Positions 10-31,471 of a stretch of DNA of 64,000 nucleotides are shown here, piece after piece. How positions within the stretch are numbered: position 1 is the stretch's first letter; each line of letters opens with the position of its first letter. The notes under the pieces are model-generated. The model did no database searches and had not been told where the DNA came from. It worked only from the letters and a program-made list of their open reading frames with translations. Origin of the DNA: Cinnamomum chago (Eukaryota > Streptophyta > Magnoliopsida > Laurales > Lauraceae). Both the position numbers and the translations under genes were made by a program. Location of the stretch: NCBI GenBank assembly GCA_038049695.1, contig CP142453.1, positions 126,145,001 through 126,209,000 on the forward strand. Reading direction: 5' to 3'.

Positions 10-3000
10 TCACACAGAGCCAGAATCAGTCAGATCTCCTTTAGACTTCATGGTTTCCACTTTTAGGGCATAGAAATTAAGCATCTCCTCTTCCACGGGA
101 TGGGTCTCACCTACAATTACAAGGCAATGCAGAGGTGCACCAAAATCGACTGCTTGTAATTCTTTCATTGAGCCAGCAACCACCTTCTGATCGTCACTAC
201 CAAGACGGGCAATACCAACACAGCTCGTTTCCGCACTGTATGCTGCAGAGTTATGAAATGGCAACAGAACCCGCAGTTATACCTCTCTCCCTAAAGGTCA
301 AGTAAGTAGAAGAAACAAACAGAACCCAAACAACAAATCATGTTGTGACATATTTAACAGTTTGCATATCTAAATGCACATCTATTATGAAAACACTACT
401 GATTCTGGTTCAGCTTAAAACTGATCAGTTCTCTCCTCAAGTCATCGAGTGCTCTGATGCAATGATGGAATTGGCAATTATCACGAGGAAAGTTCAGAGA
501 GAAAGCAATTGTGGTTGACTCAAGAGATGCAGAACTTTCTCATACAAGTGTGCTATCTGAGAAATATATATTGTACATAGCCAGATGAGATGATTCATTC
601 CCTGCTCCCAACACTTGATCTGCCAAGTGCTCAGCCTTGTTTTGTCACACTTCATCCCCACACATTCACGTGGAAGATGCCATGGACTGTGCATCAAGAG
701 GAGAAAGAATTACAGATTGTAATTGTGTTTAAGCATTCCAACATGAGTATGGCTTATAAGATGTGCATATTATGTGTGGTTCACAGAAAATGGCATACAC
801 CAATTTCTATTTCAGTAATGAAGGTTAGATTTCACGTACAAGGCAAAGCATTGAACATAAGAAATTAGTCATGTATGATGTTAAAAGTTACTTGTCCACG
901 AGCATGTTGACGAGAATTGAGAAAGTTAAAGACCTATTTAATGATAGCCAGTATACAATAGTTGACGAAATTAAAGTAGTTTAGTCAGGATCATTGCTTT
1001 GGTGCAATGGTAAAAGTCTTGGGTGCCATGTGTGATAACGCAAGTTTGAAACCTGCAAGTAACCACTTTGTGCAAAATTCCTAAAGGTTAGGTCTGTCTC
1101 CAGTATGGAACCCCCATAGGACCCTGCTTCGGCGGGATCATTGGGTAATGACATTTTTTTAGTCATTCATCTAATTTTATTAAAATAGAAAGATAAACTT
1201 CCAAAGAAGGAAAGGATTGGATTAAGATTTCTTTGGCTTCGTAATACTCTGTAACACGTTTTCTTTATAATGGTTGAACAAAGAATAGACTTCTGTTTTT
1301 CATAGGAATTCTCTCTCGTGACACTGTAGTCTCTTTTGGAGCGTACTACTTATTTTCTCCCACCTGAGCACCAACTAAAAATATTTAACACGACCTTTCA
1401 TGTTTCTCATCTCCATGCATCCGACCAGTACCAAACATTGAGACATTTAAGACACTAGATTCCATTGGTAAGTTCTAAGGGCTTGTTTGGCATCTCTACT
1501 CTTTTATTTATAGATCCATCTAAAATAGAGCCATTAAAAAAAGAGCCATAAAAAAAAGAGGTTAGGATAAAAAAAAACGCATTTGGTAACGCATGAATCT
1601 ATTTTAAATACCTTGCCTCTATATTTTAAGACTCAAAAGCTCTATTTCTCATCTGCCCACTTTTGGAGCATTTGGATTTTAGAGGATTTGCCTCTAAACG
1701 TCTAAAGCGGACAGAGCCTAAAATCTTGTGCCAAACGCTCTAATTGTTCAAACCTATGTCCGATTTAGACATTTAGAGAAATAGAGGCATGAAATAGAGA
1801 TGTCAAACATGGGCTAAGTATTGCTTGACAAAGTGCATTTATTAAGGTAAAAGTGACTAGTTGCTTCACCTTAATGGTGGATAGCAGAAAGCTTATACTG
1901 CACTACTATATCCCAGTATTAAACATGCAACACAAGGTTTTACAGAGGGGTCTTAGTATTACCCCCTTATTTTTCTGCCAAAAAAATGTCATGTCATTGA
2001 CTCATTGTGGAACTGGTAACTCATTGTGGAACTGGTAAGCACTGAGGATCATATTCATTTCATTTGGGGAAAAGGGAGGTACTTCCAAAGCATTCAAAAA
2101 TTAATGGGCAGTAGTAGGCTCAATCAATCAAAAGTCAGCAACAACTGAACTGAGTAGAAAATTCATGTCTACTTTAAAATGTCACTCAGTTTCAGTCAGG
2201 TTCTACTGGAACAACTATAAACCTTAAATCCTGTTGGTTTGGATATTGCCTAACCACACACGCACGCATGCACAAAAAAACAAGTTGCCCGTCTGACTTA
2301 CCTGATCAACGAGCTTAGTAATAATGATAAATAATAACAGTCAGAAAAGCAGAAAAAAGGGGTGCATCTAATGTGGTTTCCAGTATCCATGTTGCCCCAA
2401 ACATATGGCAGAACCAAAGTACCATACCCACCATTCTGCCAAAAGTATTCATACAGCTTATAACACAAAGTAATCCATATCCCAAGCTCATCTTTAGAAA
2501 TTGGTTGTCATCTCTATATTCAGCATTAAGTTACATGTAACTTTATTTTTACTGTTTATTTCCCCATCCATATTGCCAAACTTAAATGTCAATACAAATA
2601 TAAAAAGTTAATCCATAATGCAAAACCTGAAACCCAACAAAAAGACAGCAAGCAGATGATAATTACCAGATTCTCCACGTGTTTGTTCAACCTCCAAGAG
2701 CTGTTCAATGGCAATGTTGATTGTCATATACTTCGGTGGTTCATAACATTTTCTTCCTCTGGGAATATTCATTAGGTAGGGACCAGGCAGTGAATAAGTC
2801 TAATCAGTTGCAGAACTATTAAAAATTAACAAAAGAAAGTGATGATTTACAATATGAGCCAGCAAGTAGCTCCATATACATGTGTTTTCAATGCAAACCA
2901 TTCGACCAAATCCAAGCGTCATGATATTACCTGGGATATTAGGGGTAGGGTACTTTTATAGACTGGAGTATCTATATCTGGGCGATATGATACACACATG

Positions 3001-3295
3001 GGTAAAAAACGGCAATATACAGCATGGATACAGCTGTGACCATTTTTTAAAATCCTAGTTTCTGGGAAAGTCAAATCCATATTTATACAACTTAGTAGTC
3101 ACCGGATCATAATATTTATTTATTAGTTATATGAATAAAACATTATAAAAATATATTGATGCAGAGTTTTATTGCATTAATATGAAATTAGCACATGAAC
3201 TATCAATCATATATAAAAATAAAAATATTAAATAAAAAAGACTATACAGTATATAAGCATATTCTAAGAACTAATCATTGCTACACTCTGCCCCA

Positions 3296-3363
<68 letters not shown>

Positions 3364-11230: not shown

Positions 11231-11896
11231 CCTACTCAGTTTACTAAGAAGACCCACCAAAAAAGAAAAGCAATGTACACTCAGTAAATACAATATTCAT
11301 CTCTATTCAAATGGAAGGAAACAAACTGAATGAAATACTGGGATTTTTCAGGCTTTTCCATTGAAATACCCTCAAAATATTTCCAGGAAAAAAAAAGGGT
11401 ATTTCATTGGAACTCATGGAATTTAGAAACAAAGTACTTCTCAGACAAACACCCAAATCAACAGAAGAGAAAAAAAAAAAAAAAGCTTCAAGTTCTTGTA
11501 TTTCAATCTATTTGGTCGGTCCCAAACAGACCCAAGATTCCGCCTTTTCGGTTATTTGAAGTAAAACCCAGATTTTAAATGGCTCCAAACACTTGAGAAT
11601 GCGGATTTAAGAAGGTGTTTCGATTGCAGTAACAGCAGAAGCTCTTAAAAGGGATGGGAAGAAAAAGAGATGGTATGCTTTAAAGGGATCTTGTAGATGA
11701 CTAAAGAGAGGGTATTTCGATTGATTGGATAAGGGTGAAAAGGAAGGGAAGATGTATTCGTACCTAAGAGGATCAAACACTGCAATTTCTTACTTCGAGC
11801 GAAGGAAGCAGCAGGCAGAGAGAGAGAGAGAGAGAGCAGGGAAAACGGAGAGATTTGGCGGAAGAGAAAATATAGAGTACAGGGAAGAGGACTTAT

Positions 11897-11904
11897 ATTT
11901 TATA
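11897..11904 (-). promoter_or_regulatory. Candidate TATA box of DPH5
   Basis: Read on the minus strand this is TATAAAAT, about 670 bp upstream of the DPH5 ATG. It is followed downstream by a pyrimidine-rich stretch (the GA repeat near 11818-11838 read on the minus strand), typical of a plant 5' leader. The start site would be near 11865 and the leader would be long, possibly with an intron. Placement is inference from motif and distance only. Confidence 0.4.
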
Positions 11905-12185
11905 CTCGGCCGAGGACATTCCGAGACGGACCTTTCACAACCCTAGAGTGCAACTTGGGTCGGGTTTGATTCCGGTTAGTGTTATCCGAGCCCACCCCAA
12001 TTCATGACTGCCTGCCCCAGCGCTCCGTAACCAATTATTGCATTTTTTTTTGGTCTTTTCTCTTTTTTGTTAAGTTATTTTTTTATTTATTTATAACGGA
12101 TGGTGTCCCAACCCTTTGGGCTATAATAATCCCCTATTAGGATTATTTATTTATAACGGAGGGAAGTCGGATAAATCCCCTATTA

Positions 12186-12568
12186 GGATTGTAAACGGAT
12201 CGGCTCCGATCCGAGTCCATGGTGAACCCGGAACCGAAATAGTTAAGGAGAATATCGAATCGGAATCAGACCCGAAACCGTTTTAGAACCGGTTTTTTTG
12301 CTCTTAAACCAAAACCATATATGGAACGGGTCTAGATTCGGGTTCGAGTTTAGTTGGAGAATGATATTAAAAAAAAAATGATTTTTATGAGTGAGTGTTT
12401 TTTTAAAATTGAAGTAATATGTCAGGTCTCGGATCCACAGGTCCAAACCAATGTAGAATCGTACCCGGACTTATTTACTTATCTGGACGAAAATAAGGAC
12501 CCAGACCCAATTTTAACTGGTCGAAACCTTCGGGTAATCAGAGAATCGGGGACCCATTTACATCCCTA
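12186..12568. mobile_element. Dispersed MITE-like family, copy 1 (GGATTGTAAACGG...ACCCATTTACATCC)
   Basis: The ends are inverted: GATTGTAAACGGATCGG at the left and GACCCATTTACATCC at the right. The interior is made of GAACCG/GGACCC variants with an AT-rich core. Similar copies occur at 36835-37162 (full), 37797-38333, 47465-47685 and 63418-63612 (partial). No coding potential is seen. Confidence 0.65.
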
Positions 12569-12569
12569 C

Positions 12570-14170
12570 CCTTATGGCCCTAGTGTGTAGGACAATTTCG
12601 AACCCTCAAACATCTTAGTGCAAATTGTAGTTCTAAACTAACAAGCTACCTGTCTTTCTATGCTAAATTGGACTATTCAATCCAAAGTGATACTATAAAT
12701 CTGAAGACCTAGAAATAAAGCCATTGGCACATGTGATATTAATGTACCTACAGTACTCATCGATGAAAGCGTTGCCCAATTCACCAGTGATTGATTTATA
12801 GTATCCGGTAACCAAAACAACCTGTAGTTGCACAGGGTTGTCACTTGTCAGGTTTGAAACCATACCTCTCTCAATTAAAAATAGTGGTGGGAAGGAGCTT
12901 CCTCAACCCTCCTCCTCTTCTTCTTGCCTTCTGCTATTTTCCTATCTCGACTCTCAATGAACAAATGGACGTCGTTTCAGGGTCCCAACCCCTTTGCTGG
13001 GTTACCAAAAAACAATCTTCCGATTTTATCTTATAAACTTTAGCACTTTGCCTCACGCGAGTTTATGGTTTTGGAGGTGGTGATAAAAAATAAAAATAAA
13101 AATAAACTTGGACTAGTTAGAGTAAATGCCCCATCGTGTACATGCCTTGACCAAATTTCACTACTAATATTAGGGATGCTCAAAGGACTTCCATCCCAAG
13201 CTCTCGCCATTGGCACAGCCTGATTTGGGCTGGCCCTATGTCTAAATTTTTGGCTCGTTTAAGATATAGGATGGGCTTGGACTAATTGATGGAAAACCCT
13301 AAACCCAAGTCCGGTATGAATAATTATTACATGTAATTTAGTGACTATTTACCTAAATGAGTAATTAGATAGCCCAAACAAGTGATAGGAAAAGCCTGGC
13401 TTAGCTCGATTGACTAAATAGGCGGGCTTGGCCTATGCCAAATATGGGCCTGCATTCTTAAAGATAGGCTGGTTGTAGATAAGTCTCGGCTTGGCCCGGC
13501 CTGACCCATGAATTTCCCTAATTGAGGACCTACAAATATGATAAATATCAGTTCTATATGTAAGGATTTTTTTGGCGCTTTTCACAAATTTCTCATAACC
13601 TATGAAGATTTAAGATCTAAAGTTAGATGTTTTAGGAATTTATTAGACCAATAAAGAAGATGAACGGCTCAAACTACAAATTTGAGGTTCAGGTAAGTGT
13701 CACATTTTCATGGTCCTCTAAGGAGTTCATTCTTTATCTCGTTGAGGAACAGTTGTAGAAAAAAGAGTGGAAATCACCATTTCCTTTCCATTTTATATCT
13801 CTCTCACATCTTGGCCTTGGCTTCAAATGTCTCCCTCTTCTATCAATAGGTATGGATTTTCTTTATTTATTTCAGGGGGCTTTTTTTTAAGAACTGATAC
13901 AGACTGCTAAACACAACCAGTACTGTTTCTTTCTTGGTTTATGCTGAACTACTGGAGCATTATTTGTACTTCATGGGAACACAACCTTCATACAAAGAAC
14001 GAAAGGAATTGTTTAAGCTGATTCACTATTTCTTTTCGCACAAACTTGTGATGCTCTCGTGACTTGAACATTTGATCTGAAAGTCAGATACCTTTACTTC
14101 ATATAATCCATATACATTAAGCCTTCAAGGGACTGAGTTACATAGTAATCTGTTGTTGAGTTACATACTC
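12570..14170. other. Intergenic stretch between DPH5 and DPH6, no gene seen
   Basis: AT-rich DNA with short unrelated open frames. A repeat-like block at about 13150-13530 is dense in GGGCTTGGCC-type words and bounded by AGGGATGCTC and TTTCCCTAAT. No splice-consistent conserved protein segment was recognised on either strand. Confidence 0.6.
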
Positions 14171-14408
14171 TGCGTTTGGTCACAGCAACTACTGATAGCA
14201 ATAGAGGTTGCGTAGAAGTTGTTGTTGTTGCTGATGCTTAGAAGCTGAAGCTGTTGCTGAAGCTGGGGGGACCAAGATTATGGAAAATCAGCGATTTGAG
14301 GCTCTAGAAGTTGTCGCTTGTTGTTGTCTTATATTTGCATTTGGCCAATCGCTGTACCAATCGCTAATCGCTGTGCCAATCGTTAAGAATAAGCTGTGGC
14401 TAAACGCA
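14171..14408. mobile_element. MITE with TGCGTTTGGTCACAGC ends
   Basis: The left end TGCGTTTGGTCACAGC and the reversed right end TGCGTTTAGCCACAGC form inverted repeats around ~240 bp of repeated TTGTTG and AATCGCTG words. The plus-strand frame at 14280 lies inside it and is not a gene. Confidence 0.6.
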
Positions 14409-14791
14409 CCAGTGTTATCTGAGTCGGAGAAATCTATATCAGTGCAATTTATACATAAACCTGTATTCTGTATTGATCATGCTCACAAGATTTTTCACAA
14501 AAAAAGTTCCTAGAATTATCTATTCATGTAAACCTATCGTTGGGGTGTATGCAGAATTTGGTAATTTGCAAGATTCAGTTCATTTGTTTGTGAATATGAA
14601 CGACAAAAACTCAATCTTGTAGATTACCATGATTAGCACTTGTGCAATAAGTGAGATCCAAGGATAAGCCCTCGATTTGTATTACATAATGATCGAAGAA
14701 AAATTCAAGGAAACCCACTTGACGTTTGCCAAAGTTATGAGATCATGTGGGGATTTACTGGATCTAGAGCATGAGAGAAGATGTCATGTAC

Positions 14792-14822
14792 GTTGTTGTT
14801 GTTGTTGTTGTTGTTGTTGTTG
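14792..14822. repeat. (GTT)n microsatellite
   Basis: About ten GTT units in a row. Confidence 0.95.
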
Positions 14823-15357
14823 AGATTGTTTTAATGGAAACATGTATGTGGAGAATGATTTGGCCGATATGTATGAAGACTGTGAGATTATAGAGGGGCA
14901 GTGCGGATTTTGATGGAATGATTGTATTATTGCTAGTATCAAGATAATCTAAGCAAAAGTTTTACTAGAATGTTTATCTTGTAAATTTTGTCATTGATTT
15001 TTTCCTTGCTTGGATGGTTTGAGGGATTCAGTCACTGAATTAAAATTGAAATATAGAATCAGAACCTTGGTGACACTATTCATTGTCATTTTATGTATTT
15101 TAAATAACTAATACTTTATTTGAATCTCAATTCTAATTTATTACCAAAGGGGGGATCAAATAAAAAAAATTAGCAGTTTTTTAGCTAATAATCAATTATT
15201 ATTTTTTTCTTTCTCTGGTTTGTGTTTTGTTTTTCCCTTTTTGTGTAAATATCTTGGATGCAGATCTTTCTCTTCTTATGCTTCTCTCTCTTCTAGCAGC
15301 AAGAACCTCTCTCAGCCACCCTCTCCAAGAACACGTCCTTCCAAGGCACCACCACCA

Positions 15358-15965
15358 CCACCAAATACCCATCTATATTATGCATACTTTTAAGCCTTAC
15401 TATAAACCTGACAAGGTCTTAGATTTTTTTTTTCTTTTAAAATTGTTCAACACTATAATGTTATGAAATTAGAGGGGTCACTTAAGAATCGATCTAAATC
15501 ATTAAACAATACGTGGGCTCTAATTAATATATATATATATATTTTAAGTCTAGATTTTTCAAAAAGTAAGCTATGCTGAGTACTTTATCTAGACAATTGA
15601 AAATTCAAGAGTAATTAATTATTATGTTTTTTTTATTTCTATACCTTTTTGAACTGACCTTCATTTAACTTACTTGGAAAAATATTTATCTTATTTCTTA
15701 TTATACTGTTTATTTGAAACTAAATTTAATAGTTATTATTTTACATTGGCTTAATCTAATTTAGTGATGCTATTTCATTCCATCAATGTCTTTGACTCTC
15801 ACTAGATGTATTAAATAATGAGGAAAAATCTTAAAGATTCTTTTTTTTTTCTTTATAAGTTTGCTTTTCTTTGAGATTTCTCTTTTTCTTTTTATAATAC
15901 CCATCATCCGAATTTTAATATATTTGTATTTTTAGGCATGGTTTAGCATAGGCCTTTGTTGCTAA
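15358..15965. repeat. Direct repeat, copy A (~600 bp)
   Basis: It starts CACCAAATACCCATCTATAT and stays colinear with copy B at 17999-18596 through GACAAGGTCTTAGATTTTTT, AATTAGAGGGG, AAAGATTC and the TTTGTTGCTAA end, with scattered substitutions and small indels. No TG...CA ends and no primer-binding site are seen, so it is not called an LTR pair. Confidence 0.85.
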
Positions 15966-16075
15966 ATTTGCAACTTTTCCTCCTCTCTTAGAGGAGGAAA
16001 ACTTACACTTTCAGCATTTGCAACTTTTCCTCCTCTATGAAAGGAGAAAAACTTGCATTTTCAGCCATGCCCTTA
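15935..16075. mobile_element. Small palindromic MITE-like unit with internal duplication
   Basis: The ends TAGGCATGGTTTAGCA and, reversed, TAAGGGCATGGCTGAAAA are inverted. Inside, TTTGCAACTTTTCCTCCTCT is repeated about 50 bp apart (near 15968 and 16018). The first copy runs into AGAGGAGGAAAA, making a short hairpin. Confidence 0.5.
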
Positions 16076-16319
16076 ATCTGATTTTTCCTTCTTTACATGT
16101 GGGTCAGGTCACGGGTTAGAGTTTAGGGATGGGCATTAATGAATGATGTTTAAATGCAATTACACCAAATCACAACAAGTATACAAAAAATTGCTTATTT
16201 AGTAAATTTACTTTATCGATGAAGTGAAGTGAATGGTTAATACAATAGACAACAAAAGTAAAGGTTTGGTGGAATCAAAAGGTGAAATAATAGCTTTTTG
16301 AATTTTTCTTTTAAAAAGA

Positions 16320-17300
16320 AAAGTGTTTTTTTGTAAAGGTGTTCATGGATTTGGCCCGGTCCGCTTTGGGTCGGACATGCGGTTTAGGTTATAATATATG
16401 GGCCGTGCTCAGATTTTATTTATTTAGACTCGGTGGTTGAGAGCCGGAATCCCCCTCGATCCAAATAAATAAATAATTAGAAGAGAGGGAGTAGTAATGT
16501 GGGGACTCAAACCCATGCCCTCTCACATGAGGTGATATAACAAGACCAATTGAGTTGGCCTACGAATGGGTAAGAAACTCTTCTCTTTTTTTCTTTTCTT
16601 TTTTTTTTTTTTTCTATCAGTCTATCATGGGTTGGTCCTGGGCTCAATCGTTAACATGCGGATTAGGCTCAAGCCAGCAACTTCAGGCCTAACTCATGTT
16701 TGGGCCAACCATAGGTTTCGGTACTTGTAATTTGTTTGAGTGAATGCTCATACTATAACTCATGCTGCTATGTGTTCTTATTTACCCATGTAACTATTAA
16801 TCACCTCCTCAAATTGGTGGGAGGCGGAAAACAAGCATAAACAACATGTGGGGGCAACATAAATGACTCCAATGTGCTATGATACTGTACAAACTAGCAA
16901 CACATAAAATAAAGCTTTTTTGAATTTAAGACTATCATTTGGAGATAGCTTTTTTGAATTTAAGACTATCTTTTGAGATACAAAATGAGAAAAAAAACAA
17001 AAAAAAAAACAAATATATCACTTTTTTCATTTTTAAAATTATATAAATAAAAAACTCACTGTTTATTTTTATACAATATTTAAGAACTTATATGAATATT
17101 ATAGTGTATGTTTAATTATAGAATCTTTTTAAAATAAAATATATTAAAATATATATAGAATATATTAAAATTCAATTTAGAAAATTCAAATGAAAATATA
17201 TTAAAATACACAAGAAAAAAACATATATCTCAATATAAAAGCAATATCTATACATATAAAAAATATTAAAATATAAAATATTAAAATATAAAAAAAATGA
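16320..17300. other. Repeat-rich intergenic DNA with a SINE-like piece
   Basis: At 16320-16740 GGCCCGG and GGGTCGG words recur. About 16420-16570 contains an antisense tRNA-like B box (GGACTCAAACCC) upstream of CAATTGAGTTGGCC, suggesting a minus-strand SINE remnant. 16915-16980 has a local duplication of TTTTTTGAATTTAAGACTAT. 17000-17300 is almost pure A/T. No gene was recognised. Confidence 0.45.
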
Positions 17301-17380
17301 TTTGTAGCAAGATGAGGGAAGTAGTAAGGGAAGGATAAAGATTTGGGTTGATTAGGTGGGCCCCTTTAACCAAAGCTATC

Positions 17381-17382
<2 letters not shown>

Positions 17383-17414
<32 letters not shown>

Positions 17415-17415
17415 C
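17383..17415. repeat. (ATA)n microsatellite
   Basis: About eleven AAT/ATA units in a row. Confidence 0.95.
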
Positions 17416-17998
17416 AATGTAGTGCAAGTGTTCATCATGCCTACCCATTGTTCAATGGTCTCGATCATTGAAGTTTGGACAATAGACAAGCAAAGTAACA
17501 TTTTCTATCTAACCATTTATTGCCTGAAAAAGGTGGCCAAATGGGTCTCATAAAATTGGTTGGACCATTATTGTAATCTACTTGTTTTTACTTGCCTATC
17601 CATTAGCAACTCCGACTTGATTAAAACAGATTGAATTCAATTAGATTTCTTTAAGAGATAGATATTTCAATTAAAATCTAAAAAAGTAAATTTGCAAATA
17701 TATAAATATGATATGGACAAATTTGCCATATAGTAAAAATTTATCAAGAAAAAATGAAAAAGAAAACCCCACGCTTGTTCATAGAGTGTTTCGAAAAGCC
17801 TCCATGGATGTTGCCTCAACAACTCATATACGGCCCTCCAAGCCTCGCAGATACATTCCTCAAGCAAGTTTTCCACCGTATTTTTCTTATGAAGTGGACC
17901 CAACATGCGGCTCGCTTATTTAATGAATTTGTAAAGTTTGAGTTGATAATTTTTTTTTGAGGTTCAGATGTTTCCTGCATGGGCCACGCTGTGTAGTC

Positions 17999-18596
17999 TC
18001 ACCAAATACCCATCTATATTATGCATACTTTTAAGCCATACTATAAACTCGACAAGGTCTTAGATTTTTTTTTTTGCAATTGTCCAAACACTCTAATGTT
18101 ATGAAATTAGAGGGGCCACTTAACAATCAATCTAAACCATTAAAACAACATGTGGGCTTTAATTAATATATTTTAGGTCTAGATTTTCCAAAAGGTCAGC
18201 TGTACTGAGTACTTCATTTAGACAATTGGAAAATCAAGAGAATAATCAATTATTATGTTTTTTTTATTTATTTCCATACCCTTTTGAGCCGATCTTCATT
18301 TAAATGACTTGTATAAATATTGATCTAATTTCTTATTATACTTTATATTCGGAACTAAAGTTAATAGTTATTAATTTTACATTAGCTTAATCTAATTTAG
18401 TGATTCTATTTCATTGCATTAATGTCTTTGACGCTCATTAGATGTATTAAACAATAAGGCAAAATCTTAAAGATTCTTTTTGCTCTCTATAAGTTTGCTT
18501 TTCTTTGAGATTTATTTTATTTATAATACTACTCATCATCCGAATTTTAATATATTTTTATTTTTAGGGCTGAGCTTAGCATAGGGCTTTGTTGCT
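17999..18596. repeat. Direct repeat, copy B (~600 bp)
   Basis: Second copy of the block at 15358-15965, same orientation, about 2.64 kb downstream. Similarity begins at CACCAAATACCCATC and fades after TTTGTTGCTAA. Beyond that both copies continue into related GAGGAGGA-containing sequence. Confidence 0.85.
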
Positions 18597-19279
18597 AATT
18601 TTATGCTAAATGAAAACGTAAGTTCCTCTTGCAAAAGAGATGTCTGCTTGCTTGTATAAGGTAGAAATGTCGAATTTACAATTTGTTCTCTTATCTAAGA
18701 GGAGGATAGCCAGCAAACAGCATTATCACCTCATACACAGGGACATATGTAGTATTAATAGCATTTACAACTTTCCCTCAGCTCCAAAAGGAGGAAAACT
18801 TGCATGTACCCCTACTGTAGAAACCTACTAAAAGCATAACTTCAAAAATTAGCCTACATCCGGATTAGCTATTTTATTTTATTTTCTCTTTGTTGGCCCA
18901 GTGGCTATGGTTAGAGGAGTCTACTAGGGATCGATTACGAGTTAGCTATTCAGATGCATTTTATTATAATAAAATTTGGAATCCGAATCACCTGTTTAGT
19001 CCAAACGAGGCAATCAAAGGGTGATACTTTTGTACTTAAAAACGGAGCTGACTTTTAAAGATAATATTGCTTTTTAAACTACATTAATCTTTTATTTTTT
19101 ATACTTAAAATGACGGAGCAGGCATTTAAGAAAAACGCAATTTTTTTAACTCAACAAGTTTTGTTCGGTGAAAACGGGGGATCCGGATTCTAAAATTGGA
19201 GATATCATTCGTCCATGTATGTATATATATACGTCCTCGGAACCTCCGGGGAATCAAAAGCAGAGCGGCAATTCTTAAA

Positions 19280-19420
19280 GAGTAATGCTACTTGGACAAA
19301 CTTTTTGGCCAGAATTTTGGCCAACCCATATGGTTTCCATTGAATATTAGTGATATTCAATGGAAACCATATGGGTTGGCCAAAATTCTGGCCAAAAAGT
19401 TTGTCCAAGTAGACTTTTTG
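19280..19420. mobile_element. Near-perfect hairpin MITE with 9-bp target duplication, upstream of DPH6
   Basis: The element is 141 bp and symmetrical about position 19350. Arms 19288-19349 and 19351-19412 are inverted copies with a single mismatch near the 1-nt centre; the outer 8 bp pair poorly. ATTCTTAAA flanks it exactly on both sides (19271-19279 and 19421-19429). A 9-bp duplication points to the Mutator superfamily. It sits about 150-290 bp upstream of the DPH6 ATG, in promoter or 5' leader. Confidence 0.9.
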
Positions 19421-19513
19421 ATTCTTAAAATCTAAACACTTCACATAAACAAACACGGTTTCCAATTTCTTCTCTTTTGCTTCTTTTCTTCTCTTTCTCT
19501 TTCGAGCTTTTCT

Positions 19514-19522
19514 AAACCCTAA
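19514..19522 (+). promoter_or_regulatory. Telo-box near the DPH6 start
   Basis: AAACCCTAA, 45 bp upstream of the ATG in a CT-rich leader and followed by a GA repeat. The motif is common near the start of plant translation-related genes; a function here is inference. Confidence 0.55.
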
Positions 19523-19566
19523 AAACCGAGCTCGAAAGACACGGAGCGACAGAGAGAGAGAGAGAG

Positions 19567-22500
19567 ATGAAGGTAGTGGGGTTGGTGAGCGGAGGCAAAG
19601 ACAGTTGCTATGCCATGATGAAATGCATCGAATACGGTCACGAGGTCCATTTCATTTCCTTCCCCCCCAACAATCCTTCTCATCTAAATGCCATCGATAG
19701 GCTAGGGTTTTGTTTTTGTTTATTCATCTCCCTTCTTTTCTTTTCTCCTGTGCTTGTGCAGATCGTTGCATTGGCGAACTTGATGCCCATGGACGATTCC
19801 ATCGATGAATTGGATAGTTACATGTATCAGACGGTGATCAAATCAAATCCTTCCTTTTTACTCTTCTCCCCAAAATAACTTGACTCACTTCACTTACATG
19901 TATGTATTAGTTGAAGTTTGAATTCATGGTTGTGGTGTATTCGCACCGCGCCAGTATGAGACACAGGTGTGAATTGGGGTTTCTAATTCTACATTGGTTT
20001 CTTGAAGAAAGCCAATGCGCAGCAGCTGATTTTAAAAACCATGAGTTTCATTGACACTTTGTTTAATCTTGGACTGAAAAACCATTGATAGAAAGAAGAA
20101 GGATTTGTTATTTTTTGTGATGCTCTAACTTCATTATTATTGCTGTTACAAGATAGTTGATGCACCTGTTTGATTAAGGTTTTAATTAAATTGTTCCATT
20201 CCTGGAAATTTTGCTGGGGCATGTTCCTTTTAACAGATATAGCCGTATAAGGCAATGCATTTTGACGTTTTGAGGCGTGACAGTGTTGATTTTATCTTGT
20301 AGGTTGGCCACCAAATTGTGGTTAGCTATGCTGAGTGCATGGGATTACCACTGTTTCGAAGACGGATACGGGGTTCCGCTAGGCAAGTGATCTAATTGCT
20401 CTTATTATAGAAGAAGATTACATTCTCATTTTTGCATTACGTACTGCATATGCATATATTTTATATGATGTTAAATTATATGGATGAAAGTGGAAAGTTA
20501 GACCTGGTCATGGATTCACTTTTGGTTTTCAGCAGATCAGCGCAGACTTGTATGAGTAGTACCAGGCCTTCGACTCATGAGAGGCAAGTCTTCTCAAGTT
20601 AGGGAAAGATGATCTAGAGTATGGGTCAAAATAACCCTTAAGGTTTCTCATGTTAGGTCAAAATGTTTCAAGATGTGTGTGTAGACCCCATGTTGGTCCA
20701 CCCTCAGTCACTTTAAAAAACCCAGATGTTTGTGTATCAAGGTCATGGCTCCACTCGTTAGGTGTCGATTTTTGAAAATCATCCATGAAAGGGATGTCCA
20801 AGGATTAATTCTGAAGAATCCAACTTTATTACAGTGTGCAGTAAAATGTTATCATTGTGACACAGCGTGACTTTTTCACCTTAAAGGAAGGATACTATTG
20901 CTCCATGTTTGTGAAGAAAGCTGACGCTGAGAAAATTGGAAATGAGATGAACAATTCACAACACTTTAACTTTTCATAATATCACTATCATCAGCTGAGA
21001 CTGGCAGCATGTAATTTATTCCTTTACATACATGAATTTGTTATAAGGAGCTGTATGTGATTTGATATAATAGTGAAGTCCTATATTATCTGAAATGATG
21101 CTCAATTGATTTTTTTGGGGCCTTAGAGCTTTGCATAAATTACTCTAGTTGGGAACAAAGAAAACCATAAAATCTCCGTGCAGAAGCCTTCATCTCTTTT
21201 TTTTTTTTGTTATCGGTAGCCTTCATCTCCTTTTGACCATCTGCTTCATACACATGGTCAGTTTACCACTAAGCTCCATATTTTATGATTCTCTGATTTA
21301 ATTGTTTTTACCTGCTTATATCTGCTTGACTTTGCTGTTGCTCAGGCATCACCATCTTAGCTACACAATGACTGCAGGCGATGAAGTTGAAGATATGTTT
21401 ATTTTACTCAATGAAGTAAAACAAAAGATTCCTTCTATCACTGCAGTGTCAACTGGTGCTATTGCTTCTGACTATCAAAGACTCCGGGTGGAGAGCATTT
21501 GCTCAAGGCTAGGGCTTGTTTCTTTGGCATATTTATGGAAACAAGATCAATCATCGCTCCTTCACGAAATGGTACTTTCTTTTACTGTTTGTTTGTGTGA
21601 CCACCGTTGCTGCTTTAGGTCTCTCTCTCTCCCTCCCTCCCCCCCCCCCCCCCCCCCCCCCCCCCCATTTGTTGGCATTGCATTTATTTTGATGTCATAT
21701 AACTTTGTACTTGTGGGTCTTAACAGATAACAAATGGAATTGTAGCTATCACTGTAAAGGTAAAACTTATTATTTTATGAGATCTTACAACTACTGTTTC
21801 TGTAATTTTTAATTGACCGTACTAGTATTCTCTTGATGTGCTGTGTATGTACTTTGCATTTTGTTAATTTTTTTTAATTGTACAAATTTTATTTCGCGAA
21901 AAATAAGAATGAAAACAAATGAGCCGAAACACACAACGAAACCAAGAAAGAAGAAACAGTAGAAAAAAAAAAAACTATACATCAAAAGAAAGAAAAGAGC
22001 GAAAAACTCCTTCACTGGCAAGACCATCTGCCAAAACATTAGCCTCTCTTAGAGTATGATGGAAAGAAGCATTCAACTCTCTCGAAAGGGCCTGCGCCAA
22101 AACATTAGCCTCTCTTAACATTAGCTTTTTGTTAAGGTTTCTCTAACAATACTACATCTGCACATGAATAGTTGTTAAATAATAACCAACAATTTCGAGC
22201 AAAAGACACTTACAAAGAAAGCATCCTAAACAAATTTGCAAAATTTCACTTAGCCAAAATCGCCAGTTACACATTAAAAAAGGAAAAAAAAAATTCAATC
22301 TTAGGTATTTTCCTTTCTGAAGTTAATTCCCACAAAAAATTTTAGGGTAATTACCTCTAGAGTATATTATATCTTAAACTTCTATTAATTGTGATGACAT
22401 TTAAGAAGCAAAAGAAGTAAGGTGTGTACCATTAATCTAGGTTGAGTGTGCATCTGCAGAACTTGGTCAATTCTGTGCTTCAGGACGGAACATGGGTAGG

Positions 22501-25500
22501 ATCCGTCACACGTGTTAACTGGTAGAATAATATATTGACCATTTCAGTTAACTTTGGAGTTTTTGTTTAATGTAAAAAATTGAAGCACTATATGCATGCA
22601 CCAACATGCTATGGAGTATATACTGTGATTTGCTGTTTCAAATAGATGCAAGGCGAAAAAGCAGAAAAAGATAACTTGGTTTTTCTTGATTGTGACATCG
22701 ACATATCTAATATAACATGTTTTATTTTCTGACAAGTAGGTTTATTGAATTTTTTTTTCTACATCCACATTATTCTGGGTGGCCAGAAATGCATTGTTTA
22801 CTTGTGTCATATACACGGAAGACACCTTGCCCTGATTTGGCACGATTGTGGACTTTGGTTATATAATGCTGAAAATTGTGTTACATGTGGCTTGTGGAGT
22901 GTGGACACAAGCTCCCTCACATGAGTTAGGAAATATTGTGGACTTTTTATATGTAAAATTGGATGTTTTTTGCATATCTTGTTGTGTAAAAGACTGATGA
23001 TGTTGTTGAGACATGTTCAGGGTCTTACTTTTAATTTAGTAAAAATCCAGGGACTGTTTTGTAATTTTAGAAATGTCTGGGACTTTTGTAATTTGTGAGA
23101 AGAATTAAGATTTTGAAAGCATAGGTTTGGTTGCCTTACCCTAAGGCTGAAAAGCAGCAACTTTTCTTTCTCCATAATTCTCTTCTTTCTTCTACCTTTA
23201 CCTTTCTTCACTTTCAATACTTTTCAGTTTTCACATACGCGCACACATATTTCACATCTGAATGACTCTAACTGAGAGCAAATGCCTTTTGCATGTCAGG
23301 TTGCAGCAATGGGGTTGAATCCTGGAAAACACTTGGGCAAAGAGCTTGCAGTCTTGCAACCTCAACTGCTTCAATTAAATGAGTATGTCGGACATACTGT
23401 CTATGTTGTCTAGTCGCGCATCTTTTTCAGTTCTTATTTATTTCAGTTTCCTATTTGTTCCACCAAATTCCATTGAAGTCCATGAAACAATTAACTCTGC
23501 TTTTGAACAATCAGAATCTTAAGTTTGTTTATCTTGATTGATTGACCAGGTTCTGTATTCTATAGACACACATATGCATATAGGATGAAAAAAGTAGCAA
23601 CTGTACTTATATTTGCTTGTAAAGGATTCTGTATTCCACGTTATGAATATGCCTCTCTCTCTCTCTCACTCTCTCATTTATGGGCATTTTCCCCCTATTT
23701 CTTTTGGCAGGCTGTATGGAATTAATGTTTGTGGTGAGGGAGGAGAATATGAAACATTAACCCTTGATTGTCCTCTCTTTATTGTAAGTTTACAATTTCT
23801 TGAGTCTTATAGATATCTTTCAATGTTCTCTCTCTTTACATTCCCAAAAGATATTTTCCTCTCCCTTTTTTTTTCCCCCTTTTTCAAAATAAGCTTGTAG
23901 TGTGCTTTCCTAATTACTAGAAGTTGGATGTATTTCATTTTCAGTGTTTTTGTTATTATTTAATAGATTGCATTACTTTGCTTCATGGGCCTACTACTCT
24001 TCAATCTCAGTCAAGGGATTGTTAGGTTGTGGTTAGATGTCTCCCCTAATGTCAATGTTCACCCTCACTTTTTTTTTTTGTGTGTGTGCATGCACATGTG
24101 TGCGCGTGTGGCTACATTGGGGATTCGAACTCACACACACTACTCACACACCCATGTCCCTAACCAGCTGATCTACATCTGAGGGACAATTTCCACCCTC
24201 ACTTCAATAAATGAAAAACTGCATTATGCAGTTTCAAACTTTGCCAAAAACTGATTGGTTAGTTTTGGTAGCGGATCTGGGAAATTTTCCTTAAGGACAC
24301 CCGACCCCCTCCTCCCTCCCTCCCTTTGGTTCTTTTGTTTTACATCTTAACTGATGGGTATTGGTTCTCAGTTATTTGTGGGAAAGAACACGGTGCACAT
24401 GTATCACTATAGATACCTAATCTAGCCTTGTGTTTTAACTCATAGTTGTCAATTCCACTTTGGTTGCCTTTCTGATTTGGCCCTGTAACAGAACATTCTT
24501 GCATTCCAGCTATTCTTGGATTTCATTCCGAACACTTGGGATGGAAAAAAGAAAAAAAAGGAAATATACGAAAGATAAAATAGTAGATTGAAATGGGGGA
24601 ACAAAATTCATGTAGCCGACCCCAACATAGTTGGTTAGGACAAGGCTTTGATGATGATGATGAAAGATTAAATAGAAGAGAAATAGAACAACTCTTAAAG
24701 AAGCATATTTATATCATGTAACATAAACTGAACTTCAAACAGCTACTTGCCTACTTCTAAATACCAAATATGTCAATGAAATGCATCTAAAGTCACAAAT
24801 CAAATATAAAGATTAATCAACAACAAGTAATTAAGCACGCGTATATGAATATAAAGTACATCTGTATATATATATATATGTTTATGTATATATTATCTCT
24901 TTTAAGCCCTCTTATTTGATTAGGAGGTGAATATGTGTTTTCTTGCCCTCAAAGGAGGGTAGAAAGGTGAAAAAGAAATGCAATAACTTTTTTGGCTGAA
25001 AGGGAAGAAAAGCTGACAGGAATAGTCCAGAATTCTGGCTTGAATTTTCTGGGTGGGCGTTCCATTCCAGGTATTCATTCCGCATGGAACATTCCAGCTG
25101 TTCCAGGCGGAATAGAAGAGAATTGACAACTACGATGGAACAATGACTTGGCTTTCACAAAACTGTTTTGTATATGAATTATAGAGAACATTTTCTAGTC
25201 ATAAATGTTGCATCAGGCACTTTAACATCTAGAGTTTCCAGAATGCACGCATTGTTCTTGATGATTATCAAGTTGTTCTTCACTCGACGGATTCCATAGT
25301 AGCCCCAGTTGGAATCCTCCATCCCTCTGCTTTTCATCTGGAATACAAAATGAGCAGCTGTAATATCATGACTGGTTCCGATTCAGTAAAAATGGCCAAT
25401 GTATATGAAGTTGAAGGAGATTCTATACCAACATATGGAGTCAAGTCCCGTTCCTTGGATTTGGTCTCAGATCTATATGCTGCTGCAGACCAGAAGATTC

Positions 25501-28500
25501 ACATGTCAAGTACCACAAAGGATACATTTTCCATAGGTTGTTGGATCCAAGATTCTTCAGGAACATCTGAAGGTATGCAGTTTTAATCTTGTTGGTGCTA
25601 TTTGTGTTGTATTTTTTTTATCCCTGATTGAGAAGAGCAGCATTTTTTGTTGGCCTGCAATCGCAGAAATATACACGTTCTACCCAGCCTTTGCTAATCT
25701 AAGCCATTCATTTGTGGTTTGATTTTTGCAATGTATGATGCCATAATTTCTCTTTTGATTAATCCAATTGGTGATGCAAAAGGACAATCACAGCCAGTGG
25801 TCCACATTTAACTCTGAAGAATCAGATGGTTGCAACCATCTGCAATGATTTTGGGTGCATCACATGTCCACAGTGAGACCCCTAGTACGAACAGTTTAAA
25901 TCCCTAGGAGGGCCCTGCATCTACATAAAATATGGAGAGCAGAAGTTAAATCGAACAGCGTATTTCTTCAAGTCTCTTGGCCATTCTGCAGTAATGTGAT
26001 TTTGAATCTGCATTGGCAGGTCTGCAAAAAGATTTGACTGCTGTTCTCAAGAAAGTAGAGTTGCAACTTCACAAAGGTGGTTTTGATTGGGTGAATGTCT
26101 TGTACATTCATCTCTACATTGCCAACATGAATGATTTTGCTTTAGCAAATGAAACATATGTGAGCTTTATAACAGAAAGAAAGTGCAACTTGGGTGTTCC
26201 TTCTCGCAGTACAATTGAACTGCCTCTGATGCAAGTGGGTCTAGGAAAAGCATATGTTGAAATCTTAGTGGCGAATGACCAAACTAAAAAAGTCTTGCAT
26301 GTACAAAGTATTTCATGTTGGGCACCCAGTTGCATTGGACCATACAGTCAGGTAAATACCATCGCATCTTTCTCCATTCTTTTTTTCCCCTTCCAGTCTC
26401 TATTATCTGCCTATTATGCAGTTTTGGATCTTGAGATTTCCCAAATTCCTTTACATGTGTGTATAACTTGTATTCCTTTCTTATGAGGAGAAAGAATCCA
26501 CAACCAAGAACTTGAAATTGGTTCCATATGTTAACATGTATTCTGTGTGTGCATATGATGCCTATGTGGCATGTATGTTCACACTGCACATGTATGGCGT
26601 ACATGTGTGGAATGACTTCTACTTTTTGCTGAATGGGGATTTTATTCTTTGCCAGAAGTGATTTGTAAGATAAATTCTAGCATCACATAACACACACAGA
26701 CACACATGTGCGTGTGCGTGCTAACAAGGATGGTCCATTCTGGGGCACCTTGGGCCATGCCAATTAGGAAAATGCAGGGTTGGGGATGGAAAGATTTCAA
26801 TGAAACCTAGGGATGTACAAAATATCAAATCCATCAAATCATCTTGACCCCTCGATCTATGGTTGGTTTTGAAAGGCATCTTTTTTGGATTTTTATCCTA
26901 TGGTGACTAATTGCTGGATGAGCGCCAAATTTGGCTTGTGGGAGTTCATGGGGGGATTTTTTGTTTGTGTGTGTGGGTGTTTTTGGGGTGGGGGTGGGGG
27001 AGGATATTTGATCAGCAGGTGGGTTAAGGAGCACCAAAAATAAGGCAGACAATGCATTGTCTGGATGCGATTTCAATCTGATGGCGAGTAATTGCTGGAT
27101 GAGTGCCAAATTTGGCCTGTTAAGTAGGCCCAAAAATAAGGCAGACCATGCAGTGTCCGGATGCAGTTCTCACTTGAATGTGAATATGCGTTGTGCATGC
27201 GTGCAGTGGCTTTGTTTACATAAGAATGCTTCTCACATTTCTATGTGAAAACCGTTACCCACATGGACGCATGTTAATTATAGGGGTAAGGCATTTCTAT
27301 ATGAGAAGTTGAGAACCATTGCTCACCTGGATGCATGTCAATTATAGGGGACAAGGGAGATGGAAAGGTCTATTCTTGGATTATGATGCCCGAAAAAACA
27401 ACATGATTAAATCATTAAAGATATGGAATTTGAGGCTCTAAATATCAATGGTGAAAACTTATGTGAAAAAAGGTGTTTCAACTCAAAGTTGAGTAGCAGT
27501 CGGATGAGTGTCAAAAATTGTGAATGTCAAGTCATGGGGGCCTAGTGAATGTGAGGTGCTCTGTTGATCTAAGGTTGGTCTGGTGGGCTCGAGATACTTA
27601 ATTTGGACAGAATTTATTCAAGGACAGTTCTCATTGTTAAATTTCCCTCTTTGTTTATACAATACACACACACTCACCAAACTTCCTACTGTAAAATTAA
27701 AAATGGTTATATATTAGATAGTTGTATTACTATTATTAGCTATAAGTTTAGAATGCATTAGTTATGGAATTTGTCTATGAAAAAATAGAAATGTACAAAA
27801 ATCTTATAAATAGTGAGTAAGAATAAATGTTATGCTGATGTGTCCCACATGACTGATGTGGAATTTTTTTAGCAAAACATGATTTCCTTTTTTGTAGCTA
27901 GGAAGTAATAAATTTTTACATTTAATTCTTGTCACTGCAGAAAAGGATCCAACCATATAAAATTTGAAGTAATATCTCAGCATACATCTTTCTAACACAG
28001 GCTTGTAGTTATTACCTAAACCTATGTTTGTTGGACTAAGACTACATTTTCATCATAACATAAGCATTCATTCACACTTATGTTTCGTGTGTTTCTCTCA
28101 GGCGACTTTGCATAAAGAAATACTTCATATGGCTGGGCAGTTGGGGCTTGATCCACCTACAATGATGCTTTGTCCAGGAGGTCCCATTGCAGAACTGAAA
28201 CAGGCATTAGAAAACTGTCAAGCAGTGGCCAGTTCCTTCAACTGTTCTTTATACTCATCTGCGATTAGTTTTGTCATTTATTGTTCAGCATCTGTCACAT
28301 CCTCCCAAAGAAATGAAATTTGGTGCAAGATGGAGAGCTTCATTGGGCAAAAAACATCTTCTAACTTACAGAATGGGAGTGTGACTGATGTTTTGCATCC
28401 GCTTTCCCTTTTTGTTCTTGCGCCTGATCTACCAAAGAGGTAACACTATCAAATTAACTTAGGGTCTCAGTTATGTGCCATACAAGGGTCTTGACTCTTG

Positions 28501-31471
28501 AGGCATCTAAACAAAAGGAATTGTAGTGTCCTGTCCTGATGCCATTTCTGTTACTCTGTACATTCCGTGCTTTGAGGACAGAAAGTTAATTCTTTTATAA
28601 TATTGCTGTATACTTATCTACTTGAATACTTCTTAGATAATTAATAATGAGTTTTCTGTGCAACCTGAGACTGAGTTTGACCGAGTCGAATCAACCTGGT
28701 GAATTTTCAAGTGGAGTTTTTGAATTATGGTGTTGGTGATTTCATACACTCAAGCGAATAAATTGAAACTTGTTCATTATGTTCTATGCTTTTTGTGCAA
28801 CATGCCATCATTGTCAAACCATTAACATCTGCTAGGGTTTTGGGGTTTTGGTTTGTTTTTCTTCTTCTCAGCTTGTCCCTTAGGGTTATATGCAACAGTG
28901 AGTTCAAAGAGAATTTTTAAAAATGACTCAAATAAACTCAGGCATGAACATTTTGGTAACTGATGTCTTGCAGGGCACTCGTGGAAGTAAAGCCTGTCCT
29001 TTATGTTCCAGCAGACAAGGAAACCATGACAGAAGTTGAAGTGAAGAGCCCTATTCGTGCAAAGATACCAAATTATTGGGGCTTTGAATACTCAAAATGG
29101 CATTATTCATGCTGCCAGAAATATATTCTTCATGGAAAGATTTGTTCGACCATCCTATCTGTCACAAATGAAATTGCTGCAAGGATCTGTTCAGAAACTG
29201 ATCAGAACCATGTAGACTGTCAATATTTTGGTGCAGAAAAACACATGAAAAGAATAGCGAGATTCTGCATTTATCTTCTCAATGAAGTTCTTTTGGAGGG
29301 AAATTTCTGTTGGGGAGATCTCACGGTCAGTTTTGTTCCTGAACTACCTCTTTTTTTAGCATTGGTTTTTTTGTCAGATTTTACCATACCATGAGGAAGA
29401 TTTATAAGAACAATCCAGTGTAGTTTATGTATTGATTGGCATCTGACTTCTAAACATGGTGCATAGCTCTTCTTAGTGCGATTTTGCAGATTTTTTATCC
29501 CAGCCCAAACATGTCATGACCAGCAAAACAGGGGAAATGTTCTCCTACGAGCAATTGCAAGTGCAGTCCATCACTGCGGGCCCACTGTTAGTCAGTGCAG
29601 CCCCTTTGATAGTCTTTTTGAGGGTTTTTTCCCTGCCCTTTGGTAGTCTTTTCATCCCATGATTTGGCATAAGGCCTTATTCTTCCTCAAGAACCAAATC
29701 AATATCTTCAAAAAAAAAAAAAAAAAAAACTCAATCACTTGTCTCACAAAGATATGGATGCAGACAAGGAAATAAGGAGAAAATCTCGCTCATAAACTCG
29801 CTCGCTTGACTTCAAAATAAATGTAAACTCATGAACAGCACTCGCACCGTTCGCTTTCTAGCTGACTTCCTTACTGCTTGCTTGGGTTGTACCTATTTTA
29901 CACTCACTGGACCTCCACTCACTGTTGGATTGAATATCAAGAAAATCTACAGTCATGAGGCATTAAATTTTAAGTTTATTAACTCAAGGGCTGGGACAGT
30001 CTGGTGGGGCTGATTTTTTGAATCCCCTTTGTCCATGAGAAGGCCTTTCGTTCCCATTAAAAAAATCTTGGATCTAAACGGGCTCCATAAGCTGGACTCT
30101 GCATATAAGCTATATATGCAGTCTGCTATATATGCATTCGGCTCGTAGGAGAACATTCTCTAGCAGAACAGAGCTTTGCTATTGTAGTCGTCTTTACTTT
30201 TGGTGGCATCAGATACATACTTTTCACTTTCTGCTTCCCTTTTTTTGGGAACTACTATTCAACTGATTATTCTATTCCCGATTTAAAAAAAAATAAAATT
30301 TTATAACAAAAATTTTATTTTTCAAGAAAATAAAACAACAAAAGACAGACCCAGCAGAAACACAGCCAAGCCTGACCAGGAAAGAACAGATACAAACAAA
30401 CCAAAAAAAAAAAAACATTAAAAGAAATTGAGCTTCGAGAAACTTCTTTGCCAAACCGTCCGCCATCTCGTTAGCCTCTCTAAAAATATGATGAAATGAA
30501 ACACCCAATTGACGACAAATATCCTACACCTCCACCCAATCTGCTAACCTCCAAGGAAAAGAAGACTTCCCCGAACACCATTGAACAGCCGAGAAAGAAT
30601 CCCCTTCCAGAATAAAATTATAACCACCTAATTTGAGCAATTCACGACACCCTATCAAAAGGGCAAAAACTTCAGCTCCATTTGCATCTAAAGAATCCAC
30701 AGGTCCAGAAAAACTCCTAATAACAATACCATCGTTCTTTGGAATTAAAGCAATGAAAGAGGCACCTTACTCTCCTGCTATAACACCATTTTCGTGGAAT
30801 TCATTTAGGAACACTGACATATCATCCTCTATAAGATCCCATAACTGTAGGAAAAAAAACTATAGGAAACCCATCTGTGGACCCGAAGCATGATCTCCCC
30901 CTACGCCAAAAACAGCTTGCATAATCTATTCATGAAATCTCTCTTCCAAGGAAGAAGCACAAGAAACTGAAAGCTTCTTAAAAGAAATCCCATCCGAGGC
31001 TTGGATTTATTATCACCTTTATATAAATGCTTAAAAAACGAACAATTTATCTTTCATTGATCATCCTGGCTAACCCGAGTTGATGAGATGAGATCTTGAT
31101 TGTAATCATGATGATGATTTTGTATACATAAAACTCTTATTATTAGTACCCACCCGCCTGCCCTGTGGATAGTTGTTGTATTCATGAATGTGGAAGATAA
31201 TGTTATCATGTTTGCAATTCCATTAATATCCAAGTTATTCTTCATATTGCTTTTGCAGAACTTGAGATTTTATTTCACAACAAAACTCTGTTTAGCCGCG
31301 GATGTATTGTCACTTATATTGTTGGAGGCATTTAATGAATTCTCAATGATCGATGATAGAGTCACGATTGGCGAGGAGCCTATCTTCAACCTCATCCCTG
31401 TCTTAGGCTCTGGTGGGTGTGCACTTGCTAATGATTTAATTACGTGTGAATTATTTGCTTCAAAACTTTGA
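19567..31471 (+). CDS. DPH6: Diphthine-ammonia ligase (DPH6), 12 exons, complete CDS
   Basis: Known role: ATP-dependent amidation of diphthine on eEF2, the last diphthamide step. Exons: 19567-19644, 19762-19833, 20303-20382, 21346-21571, 21727-21759, 23300-23382, 23711-23783, 25242-25572, 26020-26351, 28102-28439, 28974-29325, 31259-31471. They sum to 2211 nt, 736 aa, near the ~720 aa of plant homologues. Seen: PP-loop SGGKDS at residues 8-13; LDSYMYQTVGHQ across exons 2-3; GAIASDYQRLRVESICSRLG in exon 4; GEGGEYETLTLDCPLF (residues 199-214). Two RidA/YjgF-like domains follow, one from LQKDLTAVLKKVELQLHKGG (about 327), the other from CIGPYSQATLHKEILHMAGQ (exons 9-10). The C-terminus has EEPIFNLIPVLG. 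Every phase agrees; intron 3 is GC-AG. The ATG starts family homology. Introns 5 and 11 hold antisense LINE fragments. Confidence 0.96.
21639..21666. repeat. Poly-C run in short DPH6 intron 4
   Basis: 28 consecutive C, preceded by CT and CCCT repeats, inside a 155-bp intron. It forms part of the pyrimidine tract, about 60 bp before the acceptor. The exact length may be a sequencing or assembly estimate. Confidence 0.9.
21860..22130 (-). mobile_element. L1-like LINE 3' fragment, antisense in DPH6 intron 5
   Basis: The minus-strand translation gives ELNASFHHTLREANVLADGL then ASEGVF, the C-terminal motif of the RNase H-like domain of plant L1 LINEs. It is followed by AAATAAAATTTGTAC and an A-rich tail (about 21870-21895). 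The REANVLA motif occurs twice (about 22027-22048 and 22092-22120), a small internal duplication. The 5' part is missing. Confidence 0.75.
24602..24665 (+). mobile_element. RTE-like LINE 3' tail fragment in DPH6 intron 7
   Basis: AAATTCATGTAGCCGACCCC, then AACATAGTTGG, then AAGGCTTTGATGATGATGAT, the same 3' end as the LINE at 6841 but on the plus strand. About 60 bp only. Confidence 0.7.
26860..27350. repeat. Local duplications in DPH6 intron 9
   Basis: TAATTGCTGGATGAG followed by GCCAAATTTGGC occurs at about 26908 and 27088. AAAATAAGGCAGAC occurs at 27038 and 27133. A further ~75 bp pair, CACATGGACGCATG/CACCTGGATGCATG each followed by AATTATAGGGG, lies at about 27260 and 27325. This looks like repeated slippage or unequal exchange. 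Confidence 0.7.
30275..30990 (-). mobile_element. L1-like LINE 3' fragment, antisense in DPH6 intron 11
   Basis: The minus strand reads, through interrupted frames, FSAVQWCSGKSSFPWRLADW and then GVSFHHIFREANEMADGLAK, the end of the LINE RNase H-like domain. Downstream (lower coordinates) are AATAAAATTTTTG and an A-rich tail. Stops and frameshifts show it is dead. The upper boundary is approximate. Confidence 0.75.

Follow-up and report, generated by a model that had tools for sequence, protein, structure and literature searches.

In the genome of Cinnamomum chago, the genes of two enzymes of diphthamide synthesis, DPH5 and DPH6, are adjacent and divergent (head to head), with a gap of 8336 bp from one ATG to the other. 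The gene models rebuilt here within the window, that is, the whole stretch of 64,000 nucleotides analysed, occupy 11230..10 and 19567..31471 and confirm this arrangement, which had been proposed in the preliminary description. Both genes are complete as claimed there, the splice models giving exactly 289 aa for DPH5 on the minus strand and exactly 736 aa for DPH6 on the plus strand. With a probability of about 0.7, we consider them to be two independently driven housekeeping genes that came to lie side by side through an inherited or a fortuitous gene order; the grounds for this are the 8336-bp gap, the repeats that it contains, the unlinked position of the DPH1 and DPH2 candidates and the mixed nature of the flanking genes. 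On this reading both genes are complete and of an ordinary housekeeping kind, and each would most likely have a promoter of its own beside its start codon. Judging from family membership and published enzymology, DPH5 would methylate and DPH6 would amidate the same eEF2 histidine. The two promoters would probably act independently, and the adjacency would reflect how the genes came to be ordered, by descent or by chance, rather than selection for co-regulation.

The coding sequence of DPH5 (diphthine synthase), spliced from the raw window sequence, comprises six exons on the minus strand (11230-11081, 8386-8262, 6656-6427, 5406-5367, 2758-2667 and 242-10), and all five introns between them are of the GT-AG type. 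Its 870 nt encode 289 aa followed by a stop codon at 10-12, and the whole spliced CDS is free of internal stops and frameshifts. The protein is recognised by the NCBIfam model TIGR00522 (dph5) with E=1.3e-98 and 329.5 bits at a cut-off of 114.3, the match spanning residues 1-270 of the protein and positions 1-254 of the 258 in the profile, as is proper to a full-length member of the family. The Pfam domain PF00590 is found as well (E=5.5e-25), and solved diphthine synthase structures match the protein, the best of them being PDB 3i4t (E=1.3e-93). In a protein search of the plant's own genome (1.06 Gb, 14 contigs) DPH5 was found in one place, with five exon matches that all lie in the window; the exon of 40 nt is below the length that such an exon-level search can match, and the candidate lists of these searches for both genes are lower bounds. 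PF00590 also scored above its cut-off at two places on contig C4. Since the search with the DPH5 protein did not find these loci, we rejected them as extra DPH5 copies and assign them to a different methylase of this family.

The DPH6 gene (diphthine-ammonia ligase) is built of twelve coding exons on the plus strand (19567-19644, 19762-19833, 20303-20382, 21346-21571, 21727-21759, 23300-23382, 23711-23783, 25242-25572, 26020-26351, 28102-28439, 28974-29325 and 31259-31471). Spliced from the raw window sequence they yield 2211 nt, or 736 aa and a stop, again with no internal stop or frameshift in the whole CDS. Ten of the eleven introns are GT-AG and one, at 20383..21345, is GC-AG with the donor AG|GCAAGT at 20383. 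The domain composition of the product is a PP-loop ATPase followed by two C-terminal RidA-type stretches: PF01902 (Diphthami_syn_2, the DUF71 PP-loop domain) covers the N-terminal residues 1-230 with E=3.5e-38 and 131.8 bits (cut-off 23.2), and PF01042 matches in two stretches, the better one at 427-555. Two C-terminal RidA (YjgF/UK114) domains are the architecture reported for the DPH6 proteins of yeast and Arabidopsis in the accessible parts of two papers (PMC3541065, PMC3585130), the latter of which gives the Arabidopsis protein as an accession. The structure PDB 2d13 matches the C. chago protein with E=1.2e-25. The archaeal DPH6 equivalog model TIGR03679 gave 171.5 bits, below its cut-off of 197.3, which is not unexpected for a eukaryotic member scored with a model named for archaea. 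At the exon level DPH6 likewise occupies one place in the 1.06 Gb and 14 contigs of the genome, with 11 protein matches, all in the window, and the PF01902 profile also found one place. The last intron of the gene (29326-31258) holds on the minus strand, at 30524-30766, a reverse-transcriptase fragment of the RNase H-like type (PF13456, E=2e-5), which by its sequence is a putative retroelement remnant.

The preliminary description had seen no recognisable gene in the approximately 8.3 kb between the two start codons (11231..19566, 8336 bp), and this has held up. None of the ORFs of at least 60 aa situated wholly inside the gap (25 of 25), nor the one that overlaps its end, exceeded the Pfam curated cut-off; five sub-threshold matches were recorded in four of the ORFs, with E values of 0.087-0.18. 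No Rfam family scored above its gathering score in the gap, and a tRNA scan of the 64-kb window found no tRNA. A hidden gene was rejected on the basis of these three scans, in which the ORFs were taken from stop to stop at a length of at least 60 aa, so that a gene with shorter exons, a gene without a Pfam family, a short lineage-specific gene or a non-coding RNA belonging to no family would escape them.

A considerable part of the gap is repetitive. Searching the plant's own genome with the DNA of positions 11300-19500 gave 113 listed matches, 110 of which fall within 15370-18816, thereby defining a dispersed repeat of 3447 bp that makes up about 41% of the gap; among the matches listed, those to this repeat are distributed over 11 of the 14 contigs and are mostly 74-86% identical. 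Of the other three, one is the query, one is the palindrome within it and one is a match of 76 bp at 12058-12133. As the search scored 40 of 7390 candidates, the part of the gap outside 15370-18816 may also be repetitive. A pair of direct repeats on the plus strand, 15359..15969 and 18000..18602, is 84.9% identical over an alignment of 621 columns. From their sequence, these could possibly be old long terminal repeats, in which case the insertion would be about 6.5 to 17 million years old if between 1.3e-8 and 5e-9 substitutions per site per year are assumed. Closer to DPH6, 154 bp upstream of its ATG, there is a palindrome (19288..19412) with two fully complementary 60-nt arms around a 5-nt centre; this hairpin-type element may have an influence on the promoter or the 5' leader of DPH6. 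The recognised repeats (15370-18816, 12183-12544 and 19288-19412) total 3934 bp and leave 4402 bp of the gap. The earlier suggestion that the gap might have been stretched by repeats is therefore right in part, for the approximately 3.4 kb of dispersed repeat, with 4402 bp lying beyond the repeats recognised: the gap is probably filled in part by old transposable-element DNA, and repeat insertion has stretched it to that extent.

These distances bear directly on the question of a shared promoter. One study counts head-to-head genes of Arabidopsis and rice as bidirectional pairs if at most 1000 bp separates their transcription starts (PMC2648788). The genes considered here resemble such pairs in being adjacent, on opposite strands and with their starts facing away from each other; the difference is that the pairs of Arabidopsis and rice have transcription start sites within 1000 bp, whereas the start codons, by which we judge the present pair, are 8336 bp apart. 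A simple shared bidirectional promoter, for which the preliminary description had already thought the gap too long, was set aside as the main explanation on account of this length, which still amounts to 4402 bp after the 3934 bp of recognised repeats have been subtracted. The distribution of promoter-type motifs was also inspected. A copy of AAACCCTA, which we take to be the telomere box, has its start 53 bp upstream of the ATG of DPH6; on the DPH5 side the nearest exact copy lies at a distance of about 2 kb from the ATG, none being present within 2 kb of that codon. In the window as a whole the motif was counted 8 times at an expectation of 3.2. The motif TGGGCY (83 observed, 48.6 expected) is uninformative on the gap, since it is enriched across the whole window.

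The genes surrounding the pair are of ordinary mixed content. To the left, a gene for a PP2A B'' regulatory subunit, whose exons were assigned by eye, is transcribed in the direction of DPH5, with its end about 7.6 kb outside the window, so that it and DPH5 are tail to tail; one of its exons matches B'' subunit structures with E=6.2e-20. To the right of DPH6, an eL14 ribosomal protein gene lies on the minus strand at about 44.8-45.7 kb (one exon, best E=3.4e-19 to plant eL14), which brings three translation-related genes (DPH5, DPH6 and eL14) within 46 kb. The first exon of a dCTP pyrophosphatase 1 gene is found at 58 kb through a PDB match with E=2.4e-7 and has no Pfam match. Two copies of phytochelatin synthase follow in tandem, one at about 97-101 kb and the other at about 117-121 kb, some 66 kb beyond DPH6, this being the sole such locus found in the plant's own genome. 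Arabidopsis presumably has homologues of both PP2A B'' and phytochelatin synthase close together in two places of its genome (At5g44090/At5g44070 and At1g03960/At1g03980), and for this reason the 264-kb region with these two genes suggests an old block. As for the other genes of the pathway, an own-genome search with PF01866 found one gene at C3:111.58 Mb, 14.6 Mb from DPH5 and DPH6 on the same contig, and one on contig C12. The intronless one is probably DPH1 and the split one DPH2. Neither of these two candidates, the further pathway genes that the search covered, is thus near the DPH5-DPH6 pair.

Proximity of the same two genes has been described in archaea. According to the part of the publication consulted, dph5 and dph6 (DUF71) are close to each other in three Methanosarcina genomes (PMC3541065). 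In our scan of bacteria and archaea, with one genome per species, the plant protein alone found nothing, and patterns derived from an alignment of three DPH5 proteins gave 89 encoding stretches, of which the best 80 loci were kept. A DUF71 profile match accompanied dph5 in 3 of these 80 loci (L078, L079 and L081), all of them from Methanocellales, with the DUF71 gene 2741-2772 bp downstream of dph5 on the same strand. The other 77 had no DUF71 match, and 30 of them offered at least 4 kb on both sides; counting the three DUF71 loci, 33 of the 80 had flanks of this size, which makes the proportion 3/33. Many close relatives (Thermococcales, Pacearchaeota) are included in the 80 loci, and 3/80 is accordingly no rate over independent lineages. 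The likeness to the plant pair consists in a diphthine synthase gene and a DUF71/PP-loop diphthamide synthetase gene lying close together. The archaeal genes differ in sharing one strand at 2741-2772 bp, whereas the plant genes are divergent at 8.3 kb, and the archaeal DUF71 frames of 224-229 codons are too short to hold the RidA-type domains of the plant enzyme. Continuous descent of the plant arrangement from an archaeal pair is not suggested, because 77 of the 80 loci are without a DUF71 match; the proximity of dph5 and dph6 recurs now and then, as an exception. Among plants, the gene clusters of specialised metabolism are the familiar case of non-homologous genes of one pathway found as neighbours. 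DPH5 and DPH6 share this feature, but here there are only two genes, they encode conserved housekeeping enzymes that act on a protein, and the DPH1 and DPH2 candidates are elsewhere.

Concerning linkage of DPH5 and DPH6 in a plant, we found no report in the open PMC literature, the longer result lists of which were covered in part. The relevant passages on wheat map DPH6 (TraesCS6A01G378100) to the distal part of the long arm of 6A, at 599 Mb; as its surroundings they name an adjoining protein kinase gene together with EF1A (one gene) and NAC (two genes), with no mention of DPH5 (PMC11054703). A DPH6-like gene of pepper is assigned to chromosome 5 in a table whose available portion does not contain DPH5 (PMC10413807). 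In sorghum, a diphthamide gene, which one not being stated, is located on chromosome 4 at 67.1 Mb, and the excerpt concerned does not mention DPH5 as its neighbour (PMC8892184). The importance of the pathway itself is documented in Arabidopsis, where diphthamide synthesis is, in the part of the work at hand, described as needed for translational fidelity and growth (PMC9273596).

One objection to the two genes being independent neighbours is that they belong to the same short pathway. The chance of adjacency is about 2/N for one given pair and about 0.0014 for any pair among the seven DPH genes, which is improbable; this figure assumes 30,000 genes, covers the diphthamide pathway alone and applies to a pair picked after looking. 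Over the many small pathways open to notice, one same-pathway pair is not surprising, and adjacency by itself does not show selection. It also speaks against independence that exactly this pair is linked in some archaea (Methanocellales, Methanosarcina), and that the distance may be compatible with shared enhancers or a common chromatin domain. The nearness of eL14, a third translation-related gene within 46 kb, may count on the same side. Inheritance of the arrangement, which can hold together with independent promoters, is a possibility that we rate somewhat below an even chance. DPH5 and DPH6 would then have been neighbours in an early angiosperm, within a block to which phytochelatin synthase and PP2A B'' also belonged, and their linkage would be historical and neutral. 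In Arabidopsis, whose homologues we take to be At4g31790 and At3g04480 on different chromosomes, it would have been split when a duplication was followed by the loss of alternate copies. The positions of PP2A B'' 7.6 kb beyond DPH5 and of phytochelatin synthase about 66 kb beyond DPH6, with homologues that are presumably close to each other in Arabidopsis, argue for such a block, and we further assume that the wheat DPH6 region and that of rice Os06g0102300 are related by a grass genome duplication. The wheat gene is on 6A (PMC11054703) and the rice one is given as phytochelatin synthase in the section seen (PMC6508543); this comparison is only a lead. The neighbours named for wheat DPH6 and the accessible portion of the pepper table, both without DPH5 (PMC11054703, PMC10413807), point the other way, and a lineage-specific move of one gene fits equally.

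A functional divergent pair, held together because a promoter, enhancer or chromatin domain common to both genes keeps the methylation and the amidation of eEF2 in balance, appears unlikely to us. The common pathway, the divergent orientation, the absence of anything recognised between the genes and the archaeal dph5-dph6 proximity (Methanocellales in our scan and Methanosarcina in the published excerpt, PMC3541065) are in its favour; it is opposed by the 8336-bp gap, of which 4402 bp are left once the identified repeats are removed, by the placement of AAACCCTA 53 bp from the DPH6 ATG but about 2 kb from that of DPH5, and by the unlinked DPH1 and DPH2 candidates. Nothing found here supports a function of the neighbourhood. 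The bolder combination, an adjacency ancestral to many angiosperms and selected as a co-regulated module that balances trimethylation and amidation of eEF2, independently echoing the situation in Methanocellales and Methanosarcina, is quite improbable. An assembly misjoin, by which DPH5 and DPH6 from different places would have been wrongly joined, has nothing specific to recommend it and is very improbable indeed, given that the window is inside a 134.3-Mb contig with no N in it or in 100 kb of flanking sequence to each side and that both genes are intact. If the linkage is old and conserved, it would represent a plant case of two non-homologous protein-modification enzymes held together and would offer a handle on how plants coordinate the steps of diphthamide synthesis. 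If it is not, the pair illustrates that same-pathway neighbours can arise from gene-order history, and that a gap of 8336 bp, about 41% of it dispersed repeat, is no ground for inferring a shared promoter.

The wider neighbourhood has several further features. In the left flank there is a protein kinase fragment about 69 kb before the window (PF00069, E=1.3e-6, below the cut-off), and inspection by eye distinguished an open frame resembling a hAT-type transposase about 51.4-49.2 kb before the window and a Copia-type polyprotein-like frame at about 25.7-21.6 kb before it, between the assigned PP2A B'' exons. Downstream of eL14 and on the same, minus, strand, five matches to the H/ACA snoRNA snoR109 exceed the Rfam gathering score at window positions 40220-44430, and three of the copies form a 474-bp tandem array at 41648-43018, which is possibly hosted by, or trails, the ribosomal protein gene. 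In the right flank, an LRR protein is encoded at 84-86 kb, and the phytochelatin synthase copies belong to a segment duplicated in tandem at an interval of about 20 kb (about 95-105 and 115-125 kb), the two units of which are very alike by eye. Still further, at about 133.7-134.8 and 148.4-149.6 kb, two diverged polyubiquitin-like frames of 386 and 384 codons, composed of non-identical repeats, were noted by eye.
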